Position numbers and translations under genes: made by a program | Notes under the pieces: model-generated | The model's input: the letters and a program-made list of their open reading frames with translations, nothing else | The model's database searches: none | Told to the model about the DNA's origin: nothing | Assembly (NCBI GenBank): GCA_902576785.1 | Contig: CACGWC010000002.1 | Location: 1-64,000, forward strand | DNA length: 64,000 nucleotides | Direction of reading: 5' to 3' | Source of the DNA: an uncultured Pelagibacteraceae bacterium | GTDB taxonomy: Bacteria > Pseudomonadota > Alphaproteobacteria > Pelagibacterales > Pelagibacteraceae | Shown here: positions 15,804-21,503 of the stretch, in pieces | Position numbering within the stretch: position 1 is the stretch's first letter | Layout of the letters: each line of letters begins with the position of its first letter

Positions 15804-16310
15804 ATGAGTAAAAGAAAGGGTTATCCAAGAAAGCCGTATTCGTTTGAAAGAGTTTTAAAAGATTTAGCTGATGATATTGGTTACGATAATATTGAGACTG
15901 TTATTGAAAAAAAAAGAAAAGCTATTGAAAATATATCCAATCCTAATTTTAAAGATCGTCAACTTCATATACAAGATGGATTAGAATTAGATATTTATTG
16001 TAAAAAAATTGGCAAAGGAACACCATTCCTTACGGCTTATGAAACCCTGCTTAGAAAAGAGATTGAAAACAGAAAGGACCACGACACTACCGATGAAATA
16101 ATTAATAATTTATTAAGATTGGGTGAATCTATTGGAGATGTAATGGAAGAAACAAGAAAAGCTCTTGATGATGACAAAGTAGATGAAAATGAAAAAGAGA
16201 AAATTTCTATAGAAGTTATAGAATTAGAAAAGAAAATCGCAGAACTTAAACTGAAATTAAATTTAGGTGAAAAAACTGATTATAAAAATCAAAAAAAAAG
16301 AGAGTTTTGA
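15804..16310 (+). CDS. hypothetical protein, possible phage-type/DNA-binding regulator
   Basis: 168-aa charged ORF starting MSKRKGYPRKPYSFERVLKDLADDIGYDN; coiled-coil C-terminus; no firm family. Confidence 0.6.
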   Translation: MSKRKGYPRKPYSFERVLKDLADDIGYDNIETVIEKKRKAIENISNPNFKDRQLHIQDGLELDIYCKKIGKGTPFLTAYETLLRKEIENRKDHDTTDEIINNLLRLGESIGDVMEETRKALDDDKVDENEKEKISIEVIELEKKIAELKLKLNLGEKTDYKNQKKREF

Positions 16311-16312
16311 AT

Positions 16313-17524
16313 TCAATTTAATAATTTACTACCTAAAAATAAACCCTTGGCAGCTTCTAAGTTATAAAAATATGTTAACAAAATTAGCAATATAGCAAAA
16401 TAACTTAATGGTCCTAAAAATTGAGCATATCTATCAACAACACTTAAATCTTTACCTGATCTAAGTTTTCTAAGAAATGAATAAACACACAAAATTGTTG
16501 CTATACCCGTGTAAAAATATGATATCAGAATAAAACAGTCCATAAATGTTAGATATGGTAATTTAGGCAAATCTTCGTCTATAATAAAGTTGTAAGCAAT
16601 TAAAGATAATAAACAAACAATTGTAACATTAACTTTAGCCTCAAGTTGAGATCCTCTTACCCAAAAAACTGACCATGATATCGATAATATAAAAATTATA
16701 GGTAATATTATTTTATAAACATAGTATGAAGTAAGTCTTGATATATCAAAATATAAGTAAAAACCTTTATAAGGACTACCATCATTTTCTACATAAGAAT
16801 AAGTCTCATATCTAGGATTACCAACACTCCAGCCATCAATTGATAATGGCACACCATCACCACCCTTTTCAGATATACCAGTCTGGGAATACTCAGTCAT
16901 ATATGGTTCGTTAGGAATTAAATCTACCAAGAACGATGGGTATTCAGACCATAGTTCAATAAATAATGTTTGTTTATCAAATGGAAATTTTTTAAAATTA
17001 AAATCATTTACATGAAAAATTGGTTGATCTTTTAATCTTTTATCAACAGTTCCATCTGAAAAAACATCGACCCAATCGGCCATAAAATTCTCGATTGGTG
17101 GTTTATCTACTCTATTGAAAAATTCTATTGCTGGATCAAATAATTTAAAATTTGAAAATTCCATTGTTGGGTTGTAACTACATAAATATAAGGGTTTTTT
17201 AGTATCATCAGTTAAATAACCGTATTTTTTTAATATTGCTTTCAATCTAGGGTCTTTCCAAGTTAACCATAAATTTACTTGAGCTTTAAATGTGTTCTTA
17301 TCTGCCTTGATCTCAAATATTCTGTCAACATGGATATCAATTCTTACTTCTATTGGATCCTCAGATCCATAATTAGGATGTGGATAATTTAGTTCATCAT
17401 ATAAATTTTTACAAAAATTAGCTGGCAGGTCTTTTTGTGGATATTTATAATAATTAATAGGGTATGAATTAGAGATGAACAAATTAAAAAAAAATATAAA
17501 AAAAAGTAATAATCTCACAATCAA
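16313..17524 (-). CDS. prokaryotic pentameric ligand-gated ion channel (Cys-loop receptor superfamily)
   Basis: Pro-loop FNFKKFPFDKQTLFIELW; four C-terminal TM segments; pore-lining EAKVNVTIVCLLSLIAYNFIIDEDLPKLPYLTFMD matches the GLIC-type M2/M2-M3 pattern. Confidence 0.88.
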   Translation of the reverse strand: MIVRLLLFFIFFFNLFISNSYPINYYKYPQKDLPANFCKNLYDELNYPHPNYGSEDPIEVRIDIHVDRIFEIKADKNTFKAQVNLWLTWKDPRLKAILKKYGYLTDDTKKPLYLCSYNPTMEFSNFKLFDPAIEFFNRVDKPPIENFMADWVDVFSDGTVDKRLKDQPIFHVNDFNFKKFPFDKQTLFIELWSEYPSFLVDLIPNEPYMTEYSQTGISEKGGDGVPLSIDGWSVGNPRYETYSYVENDGSPYKGFYLYFDISRLTSYYVYKIILPIIFILSISWSVFWVRGSQLEAKVNVTIVCLLSLIAYNFIIDEDLPKLPYLTFMDCFILISYFYTGIATILCVYSFLRKLRSGKDLSVVDRYAQFLGPLSYFAILLILLTYFYNLEAAKGLFLGSKLLN

Positions 17525-17534
17525 TTTTAGCTAG

Positions 17535-18872
17535 TTAGGTTTTAATTTGTTTGGCGGTTTCTAAGCCAATTTCAGTTGCACCACCAACTGTACCCCAATC
17601 TCTGGCAGTAGCCTCACCAGCAAAATAAATCTTTTCTGCAACAGGTTCTTTTAAAATTTCTCTATATTTAAATGCGCCAGGTTCAGCTGATGCCCAAGCT
17701 CCTTGGATAAATTGATTAGATGACCAATCTGCAAAATGAGAACCAACTAAATCTTTTTTAATTTTTGAACCATAGATATTTATTAGTTCATTTAAAGCAA
17801 AATCAATTGCTGCCTCACTGCCCTCTTTTGAAATCTCAAGCCCAAATTTACCTCCAAAATCACAAAAACATAATTTAGATTTTGATGGATTTATTGTGAT
17901 TCCAACTCCCTTCGGGGAACCCATGCTATCAGTTGTCACTTTATAATATAGGTAGCTATCATGAGCTTTTTTAGAAAATAGTTTTTTAAATTCCAAGGCA
18001 ACTCTATTGTAATGTCCAAGAGATATTTTCGAGAAAGCTTCTTGTTTTTCTGGATTTAATTTTGGTGTAAATTTTATCTTTTCAGAACTGAGAATTGCAT
18101 TAGAAACAGTAATTATACATTTTTTAGCAGAGATTGTTCCTTTACCAGTTATAATTTTTACTCCCTTGCCGCTCCAATCTATCTCTTTAACATTGGTATT
18201 TAACTCAACAGGTAAGTCTTTATACATTTCATTAATAAGCGCTCCATAACCCTGTTCACAATGATATGTACCACTGAATTTAACATCATAATCAAAATTA
18301 AAATCTTTACATGAATAATCCGAAAAATCTTTCCCCATTTCCCACGGACCAACTAACATATGTGCAGTATTAAACCATGGACTATCTTGATTCTGAACAA
18401 CTTCTATCGGAGACACATCTTTACGTGTTGATGCTATTGAAGCCTGGGCAGAATCATAAATTTTCCAAAGCTCATTTTCATTTTTTGCAATTTTATTTCC
18501 ATCATAAACAGAATAGATTTCTGAAGCAGTACTTCTCTCTTTATATATTTTAAATTTACTATTTTTTTTTGCAAATTTTATAAAGGGGGATGATTCTCCA
18601 TTTTCAATCCACATTGCTCCAGCATCATAAGGCTTATTAAAAATTGTATTATCTGTCCAAGCCCTTCCACCAATTCTATTTGAAGCTTCTAGGCATATTA
18701 CAGACTTGCCCCCTTGTCTTCTAAGTTCTGTTGTAGCTGCAAGACCAGCAGCTCCTGCTCCGATTACAACTACATCATAATTTTGATTTATATTGGCTGT
18801 TATTATATTTGGAAAAGTTATAGCTGTTAGTCCTAACAATGATGATTTAATAAATTTTCTTCTTGATTTCAT
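17535..18872 (-). CDS. flavin amine oxidase (monoamine oxidase-like), predicted Tat export
   Basis: Tat-type MKSRRKFIKSSLLGLTAITFP; DVVVIGAGAAGLAATTELRRQG..ICLEASNRIGGRAWT; C-terminal FAGEATARDWGTVGGATEIGLETA. Confidence 0.9.
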   Translation of the reverse strand: MKSRRKFIKSSLLGLTAITFPNIITANINQNYDVVVIGAGAAGLAATTELRRQGGKSVICLEASNRIGGRAWTDNTIFNKPYDAGAMWIENGESSPFIKFAKKNSKFKIYKERSTASEIYSVYDGNKIAKNENELWKIYDSAQASIASTRKDVSPIEVVQNQDSPWFNTAHMLVGPWEMGKDFSDYSCKDFNFDYDVKFSGTYHCEQGYGALINEMYKDLPVELNTNVKEIDWSGKGVKIITGKGTISAKKCIITVSNAILSSEKIKFTPKLNPEKQEAFSKISLGHYNRVALEFKKLFSKKAHDSYLYYKVTTDSMGSPKGVGITINPSKSKLCFCDFGGKFGLEISKEGSEAAIDFALNELINIYGSKIKKDLVGSHFADWSSNQFIQGAWASAEPGAFKYREILKEPVAEKIYFAGEATARDWGTVGGATEIGLETAKQIKT

Positions 18873-19246
18873 ATTTTTTTTTTATTTCTTTTCTTAACAA
18901 TTTTTTTTAGTGGATTTGTTCCAAATCTATTTTTTCCTTTGGTTCCTTCAGGTATTAAAAAAAATAAAAGAGCGATACCACCGATTATAGGTATAAAACC
19001 AATTAATAAAAAAAACCCAGATCTATTTGTATCATGAAGCCTTCTCACACCTGCTGAGATTGCGGGTATTAAAGTAAATAATGTTATTCCTAAAAAAAAG
19101 TAAGAAATATTATTTTCAAATATAGTTGAAATAAAATATGACGGTGTAACAATCAACTGGAACCACCAGTATTCAGATCTAGAGGCTCTCCCCTCAAAAA
19201 TAAAGTATTTTTTTATACAAGTAGATACTGATTCACTAAAATTCAT
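18869..19246 (-). CDS. DUF805 family membrane protein
   Basis: FEGRASRSEYWWFQL and RRLHDTNRSGFFLLIGFIPIIGGIALLFFLIPEGTKGKNRFG. Confidence 0.92.
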   Translation of the reverse strand: MNFSESVSTCIKKYFIFEGRASRSEYWWFQLIVTPSYFISTIFENNISYFFLGITLFTLIPAISAGVRRLHDTNRSGFFLLIGFIPIIGGIALLFFLIPEGTKGKNRFGTNPLKKIVKKRNKKKI

Positions 19247-19248
19247 AA

Positions 19249-20802
19249 TTATCTAATCATTGCCCAGCTTAAGGCATCTATTGTATTTTCTGGCACAATA
19301 CTGACATTTATTATTACAATTATTAATATTAACAATATATATGATGATACACCATACTTTTTGCTTATCATCTCAACATTTTTACTTATTTTTCTATATT
19401 TGGTTTTTTTATTGATTTGAAAAGCATATATGGCCAACATATTTGGTGCAGCAGCATACAAATAAGAAGCTAGAATAATCCAGTCCATAATTGTTAAGTA
19501 CTCTAGTTTGGGTAGTTCATTATCAATAACAAAATTGTATGCAATTAAAGATAGCAAGCAAACTATTGAAATAGTAAGTTTTGCCTCTACCTCTTTAGGA
19601 TGAAGCCATACTGAACTCCAACAAATTATCAAAATTAGAGCTATTGGGAAAATAATTTTAAAAATATAATAAAATGATTGTCTTTCAATATCTACCTCGA
19701 TTGAGTTTTCGTTAAATATTATTCCTCCAAAATCAAAATTATTTCCAGTATTATATTTTACATCAATAATATCCCAACCAGGTATTTTTAAATTTTGCTT
19801 AGTATAATTTAAAAGTACATAATTTGTATTATAAGGAGATACTAATACTTCATCAAAAGATTCTGTATCAACTAATGATATAATGATTTTTTGTCTATCA
19901 AAAGGAAATGCAACTAAATTAAACTTGTTTTTAATTTCCCATTCACCCTCAGCAGAATATTCAACACTCAACAATATATCATCTCGCTCTTCTGTATCAT
20001 CATCGTCATAAACATATACTCCAACAGTTTCATAAACTTTATCTTTATCTTCTGAAATTAAATCGGCAAATGCTAACGTTTCTCCTGATATTGGTAATCT
20101 ATTTTCTTTTGCATAATCGTATGGAATTTCTGGACAATTCACACTTCTAATTATTTGATCGTTTTCATCAAAATATGCAATTGTATTTTTTGCGTGCTGG
20201 ACTATTTCCCAATCCATATTGTCGTAATATTGTCTATCTGAACCTAAATATCCTGAGAATTTTATTGTAGAATTTTTAAGATTTATTTCATTTATACTAT
20301 TTAATACGAACGATAATGGCCTATGTTCTTTTACATATTCTTGAGACTTAACTTTAACTTTAATTTTTTTTTTATTTCTTTGAATTACTAAATTATATTC
20401 TTTTATAGAATTTACTTGATTTATTATTTCACTAATCTCCTTATTATTTAATTTACTCAAATCTTTACCATCAATGGAAATTAGAATATCTTTATTTTTT
20501 AATTTATTTATATTTTCTCTTGTTGTTATAGAGCCAATTATAGGATAATTATTGAAGGTTCTTCGGTATTTAATACAATCTTCTTCACCACATCTTAAAA
20601 TATCAACACTTTGCACTGGGTCATTCTCTAAATCAAAACCTAAATCTAAGATTTCGACAACTGGCTGAATAGTTATATCCTTATTGTATTTTAAATATTT
20701 TAGTCCTTCTAAAAATTCATAGCACCTATTGTCCATGGAATAACTTGGATTATTAAAAAACAAAATGAACAAAAAGGTTAAAAAAATTTTGAAAATTTTC
20801 AT
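19249..20802 (-). CDS. pentameric ligand-gated ion channel with N-terminal PDZ-like domain
   Basis: PDZ-like INKLKNKDILISIDGKDLSKLNNKEISEIINQVNSIKEYNLVIQRNKKKIKVKVK; Pro-loop NLVAFPFDRQKIIISLVD; EAKLTISIVCLLSLIAYNFVIDNELPKLEYLTIMD pore segment. Confidence 0.85.
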   Translation of the reverse strand: MKIFKIFLTFLFILFFNNPSYSMDNRCYEFLEGLKYLKYNKDITIQPVVEILDLGFDLENDPVQSVDILRCGEEDCIKYRRTFNNYPIIGSITTRENINKLKNKDILISIDGKDLSKLNNKEISEIINQVNSIKEYNLVIQRNKKKIKVKVKSQEYVKEHRPLSFVLNSINEINLKNSTIKFSGYLGSDRQYYDNMDWEIVQHAKNTIAYFDENDQIIRSVNCPEIPYDYAKENRLPISGETLAFADLISEDKDKVYETVGVYVYDDDDTEERDDILLSVEYSAEGEWEIKNKFNLVAFPFDRQKIIISLVDTESFDEVLVSPYNTNYVLLNYTKQNLKIPGWDIIDVKYNTGNNFDFGGIIFNENSIEVDIERQSFYYIFKIIFPIALILIICWSSVWLHPKEVEAKLTISIVCLLSLIAYNFVIDNELPKLEYLTIMDWIILASYLYAAAPNMLAIYAFQINKKTKYRKISKNVEMISKKYGVSSYILLILIIVIINVSIVPENTIDALSWAMIR

Positions 20803-21503
20803 ATTTTTTTTGTTTCTTTTTCATTTCTTTTTAGTTTTTGTTTTTGCTTAAGTTCATTATGTAAATAAAATGAAAAAAGTACTAAAATTCCAACAACAGT
20901 CATTGGATACGGCCAAACTAAAAAATTGTAAAATCCATGAAATAAATAGGGTAAAATTAATGATAATATTAAAAAGTTTTTCTTTCCTGTAAAAGCATAC
21001 ATTCCAAAATAATAACCCATTACAGCACCATTAAGACCATGCATTGGTATTGCGGAATATGATCTGCCTAAAGCCACCAAATATGACAATTCAGCAAAGT
21101 TGTAACCTTCTTCTTTTGCTATTTGCTCTGCCCATTCATAAACATAAGTATAATTTTCGTATGTTGCAAAACCTAAAGAAACAACAACTCCATATACTAA
21201 ACCATCCATAGGTTCATTAAATTCATTTCTCTTTAAAACAATTAAATAAAGAATTGAAAACTTTAACAACTCTTCAGCCCAAGCAGGACCTAAAAAACTA
21301 CTAGTTAAGTTTTCAGAATACTTTGATCCGTCATAAAAAAAATCATGACTTAAACCATTTAGAATTCCTGCAGGTAAACAAATTAAAAAACCAAGAAAAA
21401 AAATTAAAATTACAGTGCCCTTAGGTTCTTTAAATTTATCAGCTAATACAAAGTATAATAAAATTATTATTGGAGGAACCAAAGTAATCAATAAGGTTAT
21501 CAT
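20799..21503 (-). CDS. PrsW-family intramembrane metalloprotease
   Basis: GPAWAEELLKF, GLVYGVVVSLGFATYENYTYV, HGLNGAVMGYYFG in a multi-TM protein. Confidence 0.85.
   Translation of the reverse strand: MITLLITLVPPIIILLYFVLADKFKEPKGTVILIFFLGFLICLPAGILNGLSHDFFYDGSKYSENLTSSFLGPAWAEELLKFSILYLIVLKRNEFNEPMDGLVYGVVVSLGFATYENYTYVYEWAEQIAKEEGYNFAELSYLVALGRSYSAIPMHGLNGAVMGYYFGMYAFTGKKNFLILSLILPYLFHGFYNFLVWPYPMTVVGILVLFSFYLHNELKQKQKLKRNEKETKKI

Follow-up and report, generated by a model that had tools for sequence, protein, structure and literature searches.

We examined a 64,000-nucleotide stretch of DNA (the window; contig CACGWC010000002.1, positions 1 to 64,000) from an uncultured Pelagibacteraceae bacterium, and focus here on five genes at positions 16313 to 21503, two of which encode pentameric ligand-gated ion channels (pLGICs), called pLGIC_A and pLGIC_B. 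All five lie on the minus strand at the positions given in an earlier reading of the sequence alone (the original prediction). In the direction of transcription they encode a PrsW-family glutamic-type intramembrane protease of 234 amino acids (20799..21503; PF13367, E-value 1e-33), pLGIC_A of 517 amino acids (19249..20802), a DUF805 membrane protein of 125 amino acids (18869..19246; PF05656, 1.6e-25), a flavin adenine dinucleotide (FAD)-dependent, amine-oxidase-like protein of 445 amino acids of the twin-arginine translocation (Tat) type (17535..18872; PF01593, 2.8e-45), and pLGIC_B of 403 amino acids (16313..17524), whose start codon is uncertain (TTG at 17524 or GTG at 17518). PrsW and pLGIC_A share a 4-nt ATGA overlap (20799-20802), as do DUF805 and the oxidase (18869-18872), with gaps of 2 nt between pLGIC_A and DUF805 (19247-19248) and 10 nt between the oxidase and pLGIC_B (17525-17534). 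The open reading frame coordinates bear out the predicted spacing (4-nt overlaps or gaps of 10 nt or less), and the set is a translationally coupled operon.

The prediction of two pLGICs held up in Pfam and NCBIfam searches, sequence searches of the PDB, AlphaFold2 modelling and Foldseek. Both proteins carry the expected signatures, namely a Pro-loop (FPFDRQ in pLGIC_A, FPFDKQ in pLGIC_B), pore segments (EAKLTISIVCLLSLIAYNF and EAKVNVTIVCLLSLIAYNF), an LPK-x-x-YLT motif (LPKLEYLT and LPKLPYLT) and four transmembrane helices. pLGIC_B matches PF02931 at 5.3e-9, above the curated cut-off, and PF02932 at 5.9e-6, slightly below it, while pLGIC_A matches PF02932 below the cut-off (4.5e-4). The NCBIfam model NF033918 "ligand-gated ion channel" matches pLGIC_B (2e-26) and pLGIC_A (6e-19), both below the model's own cut-off. 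ELIC is the best PDB sequence relative of each (2.1e-24 for pLGIC_B and 1.7e-16 for pLGIC_A). AlphaFold2 models, built as monomers from the window and related-locus sequences, consist in each case of a beta-sandwich and four helices, with a predicted local distance difference test (pLDDT) score of 78.1 for pLGIC_B and 84.6 for pLGIC_A. Foldseek placed the pLGIC_B model with GABA-A beta3, ELIC, GLIC and sTeLIC (8e-23) and the pLGIC_A model with GABA-A beta3, ELIC, GLIC and DeCLIC (6v4s; 1.2e-18). Sequence and model comparisons together confirm that both proteins belong to the pLGIC (Pro-loop/Cys-loop) superfamily and do not reflect a chance pattern.

pLGIC_A consists of a signal peptide, a conserved Cys27, a PDZ domain (residues ~81-155, 20338..20562), a divergent ligand-binding domain with the Pro-loop FPFD (residues ~156-374, 19681..20337, delimited by the AlphaFold2 strands) and a transmembrane domain, M1-M4 (19297..19680), seen as four helices in the model and supported by the M2 sequence. 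pLGIC_B is ELIC-like and has no PDZ domain. The Pro-loop F-P-F-D, the pre-M1 Arg, the M2-M3 Pro and the M2 Leu9' are invariant columns in the channel alignments, with F299, P300, F301 and D302 of pLGIC_A unchanged across 49 homologues. M2 of pLGIC_A has E-2', T2', V6', L9', A13' and F16', and since the -2' Glu, Leu9' and Phe16' are found in both channels, an ELIC-like cation pore is predicted for each; both would be cation-selective channels of the inner membrane. ELIC itself is an amine-activated, cation-conducting prototype (PMC3119659) that shares with both window channels the Pro-loop, the pre-M1 Arg, the M2 -2' Glu and the hydrophobic 9' and 16' positions. The two differ from it in the PDZ and divergent binding domain of pLGIC_A and in a conserved pair of cysteines, outside the Cys-loop, one N-terminal and one in the binding domain (C27 in 47/49 and C223 in 44/49 homologues of pLGIC_A; C38/C115 in 16/16 of pLGIC_B). 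This pair probably forms a disulfide linking the N-terminal segment to the binding domain in each channel. Relative to the window copies, the periplasmic heads are 20-56% (A) and 42-73% (B) identical, and M1-M3 are 62-85% (A) and 87-94% (B) identical; judged from these alignments, the heads diversify and the pores stay conserved.

The PDZ domain was absent from the original prediction. A profile built from 23 pLGIC_A-type N-terminal domains matches the PDZ tandem of the Aquifex site-2 protease AQ_1964 in the PDB (2e-12) and then the PDZ domains of HtrA/DegQ, SpoIVB and RseP. Pfam PDZ is matched by 14 of the 23 members (best 1.7e-6), and the AlphaFold2 model of pLGIC_A has the strand-helix-strand order expected of the domain. 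The profile scores below 1e-3 in 58 of 75 A-type channels, 23 of which had built it, and in none of 15 B-type channels. By profile and model, residues ~81-155 are identified as a PDZ domain with predicted peptide binding. We found neither a PDZ-bearing bacterial pLGIC nor the PDZ/PrsW channel architecture in the open-access literature searched. DeCLIC also has a periplasmic N-terminal extension ahead of its ligand-binding domain; there it comprises two Ca2+-binding jelly-roll lobes (PMC12664993), unlike the PDZ of pLGIC_A. RseP and HtrA (DegS) have the PDZ domains that are the closest solved relatives, carried there on a protease, whereas here the PDZ is on a channel with proteases encoded next door. 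Sensory accessory domains and genes (PBP, Cache, MCP-N) have been linked to bacterial pLGICs as ART-LGIC fusions and operons, which are predicted chemoreceptors (Tasneem et al., PMC549065), but PDZ, protease and amine oxidase all go unmentioned in that work.

PrsW keeps EE77-78, K81, E116, R147, H155 and H189 invariant in 13 homologues. It shares its Pfam family and the EE..K, E, R..H and H motifs with the Bacillus subtilis site-1 protease PrsW and with polymorphic-toxin PrsW, and differs in that its partner is a ligand-gated channel and not an anti-sigma factor or fused toxin. Its score is below the NCBIfam equivalog cut-off (113 vs 225 bits), and we do not claim orthology to B. subtilis PrsW. 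A single copy was found in the source genome, which is 86% complete. Of 77 related channel loci, 47 have PrsW on the strand of a channel and no more than 2 kb from it, and in 32 the two genes abut directly or overlap (gaps of -74 to +3 nt), a linkage also seen in SAR86 (L117) and in a gammaproteobacterial metagenome-assembled genome (L128). Genomes with both PrsW and a pLGIC number 15 against 3.2 expected if kinship is ignored. Mantel correlations, calculated here and below without species-tree control, give a rho of 0.76 (n=43) between PrsW and pLGIC_A distances. These comparisons show PrsW and the PDZ-headed pLGIC_A to be a co-diverging pair of usually overlapping genes, a putative first module, so that the predicted link between PrsW and the channels stands and ties PrsW to pLGIC_A. 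Eighteen SAR11 PrsW loci (L152-L169) have no detected adjacent channel and instead show diverse exported or transmembrane neighbours, a pattern of PrsW plus a variable partner, and we rejected a channel-specific PrsW on that ground. DUF805 occurs in 15/77 channel loci, and elsewhere beside PrsW without channels.

The oxidase has a GAGAAGL FAD-binding Rossmann motif and an Amino_oxidase domain (PF01593), and its closest solved relatives are LSD2, putrescine oxidase and polyamine oxidase. Its N-terminus carries a Tat motif, SRRKFIK, with the twin arginine invariant in 12 homologues; TatC is present in 15/15 relatives that are at least 90% complete and was not found in the 86%-complete source genome. 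Tat export of the oxidase is plausible. In all 12 channel loci with the oxidase, it sits directly upstream of pLGIC_B, which upholds its predicted co-localisation with a channel, and the four closest copies in the order adjoin pLGIC_B. Oxidase distances show no such relation to the first module (rho 0.04 with PrsW, n=11; -0.13 with pLGIC_A, n=8). DNA identity between L120 and L086 is mostly 92-100% across the oxidase-pLGIC_B block, with two segments at 82-83%, vs 56-59% for PrsW; between L077 and L089 the block is 84-91% identical vs 43-59% in the flanks. The co-divergence of PrsW with pLGIC_A, taken with the adjacency and block identity of the oxidase and pLGIC_B, indicates that PrsW pairs with A and that the oxidase and B form a mobile pair; the alignments show the latter to be a second putative module, exchanged as a block between loci and uncorrelated with the first. 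We give roughly even chances to the reading that the locus is an exchangeable SAR11 site carrying two pLGIC sensor modules, a PDZ-headed, protease-coupled A and an oxidoreductase-coupled B.

The constant adjacency of the oxidase and the position of pLGIC_B as the channel nearest ELIC speak for the scheme first proposed, in which A and B together make up a single amine-gated channel, as a pair or a heteropentamer, that is tied to the oxidase's turnover of amines and regulated by PrsW. We consider it quite unlikely. The amine-binding aromatic cage of ELIC, which we take to be F19, Y38, F133, Y175 and F188, was mapped onto pLGIC_B through the ELIC sequence alignment and examined in 16 sequences. 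The two loop-C positions are kept (Y175 aromatic in 15/16, F188 Tyr in 15/16), as is the equivalent of ELIC E77 (E134), and the loop-B residue is consistently acidic; all this would suit an amine ligand. That same loop-B position, F133 in ELIC, is Glu in 15/16 and Asp in the other, the Y38 position is aromatic in 0/16 and the F19 position is Tyr in 3/16, so that three of the five positions are changed, only the two loop-C aromatics remain, and an ELIC-type primary-amine cage was not found. The oxidase has Arg290 where LSD2 has Lys661, and this Arg is invariant in 12 homologues. We presume Lys661 to be the catalytic lysine near flavin N5 (with a numbering offset of 46), and have downgraded "canonical amine oxidase" as a description; the predicted amine turnover is likewise not supported. 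Paralogous Tat-type amine-oxidase-like genes in L185, L186 and L188, directly 3' of a TctCBA-like tripartite tricarboxylate transporter operon, have His at the LSD2 Lys position by eye.

A and B are mostly found in separate loci, and their distances show no co-divergence (rho -0.11, n=8). This comparison makes it unlikely that the two form an obligate heteromer; we rejected that as the default, and the amine-gated pair loses support with it. Two same-type channel genes (A+A or B+B) occur together in L078, L080, L091, L111 and L118, where heteromers are possible.

Co-localisation of these genes in related genomes is kept across SAR11, so that the original prediction withstands the loss-of-linkage test it had set itself, and the five-gene order is reshuffled. 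Besides PrsW-A-DUF805-oxidase-B we saw PrsW-DUF805-A-oxidase-B, PrsW-oxidase-B-A, PrsW-A-oxidase-B, PrsW-DUF805-oxidase-B and PrsW-oxidase-B. Beyond the operon, and also absent from the original prediction, a gene for a putative CII-like regulator of 168 amino acids (family f2; 15804..16310, plus strand) runs convergently with pLGIC_B. Its product matches the PHROG_101 CII-like activator (4.6e-7) and scores 25.4 bits against the Pfam Phage_CP76 cut-off of 26, with 21/26 family members matching Phage_CP76 (best 3.4e-7). The gene is found in 55/77 channel loci in co-directional, divergent and convergent orientations; it also occurs away from channels, which weakens it as a dedicated channel regulator. 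In close relatives the ends of the locus are 83-95% (PrsW) and 90-94% (CII-like protein) identical to the window, and the interior is 32-62% (pLGIC_A), 58-77% (pLGIC_B) and 61-64% (oxidase) identical.

Such a layout could also arise if the genes shared a recombination hotspot, with PrsW and the CII-like gene at its limits, and were exchanged as cargo with no direct functional coupling. L162 and L163 enclose other membrane proteins and no channel cargo between the same two ends (PrsW 86-89%, CII-like protein 94%), the window, L116 and L162 have a common left flank with different contents, the oxidase-pLGIC_B block is itself exchanged, and 14 of 28 genomes with the CII-like gene have no detected pLGIC. 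Hitch-hiking of this kind would not predict the co-divergence of PrsW and pLGIC_A or their overlapping reading frames, nor the unbroken adjacency of oxidase and pLGIC_B, and the linkage persists through several gene orders and in SAR86 and gammaproteobacterial genomes; we judge it unlikely. A phage or plasmid carrier of the channels is not supported either, as no relatives of pLGIC_A were found in viral contigs or plasmid records and none of pLGIC_B or the CII-like gene in phage records. A 5'-nucleotidase flank was not found in 13 relatives, in a search that had no positive control.

PrsW is not the only protease near A-type channels. Most A-type loci that lack it encode an exported trypsin-like protease (PF13365, 2e-26) and a caspase-domain protein (PF00656, 5.5e-17) beside the CII-like gene and the channel. 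In L088, L100, L104 and L105 the PrsW-linked channel gene overlaps at its 3' end with the gene for the trypsin-like protease. In most of the class without adjacent PrsW (L124, L127, L129-L136, L139, L140, L142-L145, L147-L150), the exported caspase-domain (f5) and trypsin-like (f3) genes adjoin a divergent CII-like gene and the pLGIC. The trypsin-like copy that we read has an acidic, D-rich C-terminus. Tandem exported paralogues of ~195 amino acids (family f8, with 67 members spread over 14 loci; the tested copy has no Pfam match) lie by the channel loci L127, L130, L139, L140, L142, L143, L147 and L150.

Releasing peptidases of the PrsW and caspase-like types have been described for polymorphic toxins (PMC3482391). 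Together with the PrsW, caspase-like and trypsin-like neighbours, the divergent heads and the swapping of cargo between conserved ends, this raises the idea of a polymorphic envelope protein, either an interface with phages or competitors or a proteolytically triggered permeabiliser, that is diversified in conflict and controlled by proteases as in those toxins. PADLOC returned no match for the channels, PrsW, DUF805 or the CII-like protein, and one weak, unspecific FAD-motif match to the oxidase; phage, plasmid and viral-contig searches gave no relatives, and the conserved ELIC-type gating motifs fit a ligand-gated channel better than a lytic pore. A role in conflict is very unlikely in our view.

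Returning to the two sensor modules, we infer a working scheme as follows. In pLGIC_A the PDZ domain would be a sensing or regulatory element whose binding of a peptide or of a protein's C-terminus in the periplasm biases gating, much as DegS/HtrA and site-2 proteases are steered by their PDZ domains. PrsW may cleave this channel within the membrane or serve in its quality control. pLGIC_B would report a substrate or product of its oxidase, and both modules would convert chemical or proteolytic signals of the periplasm into cation flux. A narrower version, that PDZ-headed A-type channels sense periplasmic peptides or C-termini made or controlled by their PrsW, trypsin-like and caspase-like partners and respond with a cation current, is a tentative idea that we lean against; to our knowledge, such a mode of gating is not known for pLGICs. 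Several observations weigh against the two-module reading. The window copy of pLGIC_A on its own matches Pfam PDZ weakly (E 0.09), and 17 A-type proteins, including divergent ones from SAR86 and gammaproteobacteria, do not match the PDZ profile. PrsW in SAR11 also lies beside unrelated exported or transmembrane proteins, and may there serve more generally in processing its partners. More distant oxidase paralogues stand beside TctABC transporters or other genes, without channels, and the trypsin/caspase loci may share their flanks by descent. To these are added the invariant Arg290, the channel-free contents of L162 and L163 and the lack of species-tree control in the correlations.

The original prediction held that such a module would be unusual in a streamlined marine bacterium. 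pLGICs are present in 30/297 sampled genomes of the order, an accessory trait, and named relatives are almost all Pelagibacteraceae single-cell genomes, which places the window in SAR11. A further divergent family of short (~415 amino acids) pLGIC-like proteins occurs in the order (L065-L067, L069-L072); these score weakly against the channel families and show no link to PrsW. Since pLGICs have already been mentioned in Pelagibacter (Jaiteh et al. 2016, PMC4795631), their presence in SAR11 is by itself not new, and the claim of rarity is not supported. Prokaryotic pLGICs serve as structural models for neurotransmitter receptors, yet their physiological role is unsettled, and recurrent operon partners such as these offer a way to ask what bacterial pLGICs do. 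With heads that diverge above a pore that is conserved, these channels make up a natural series of pLGICs that probably differ in ligand specificity.

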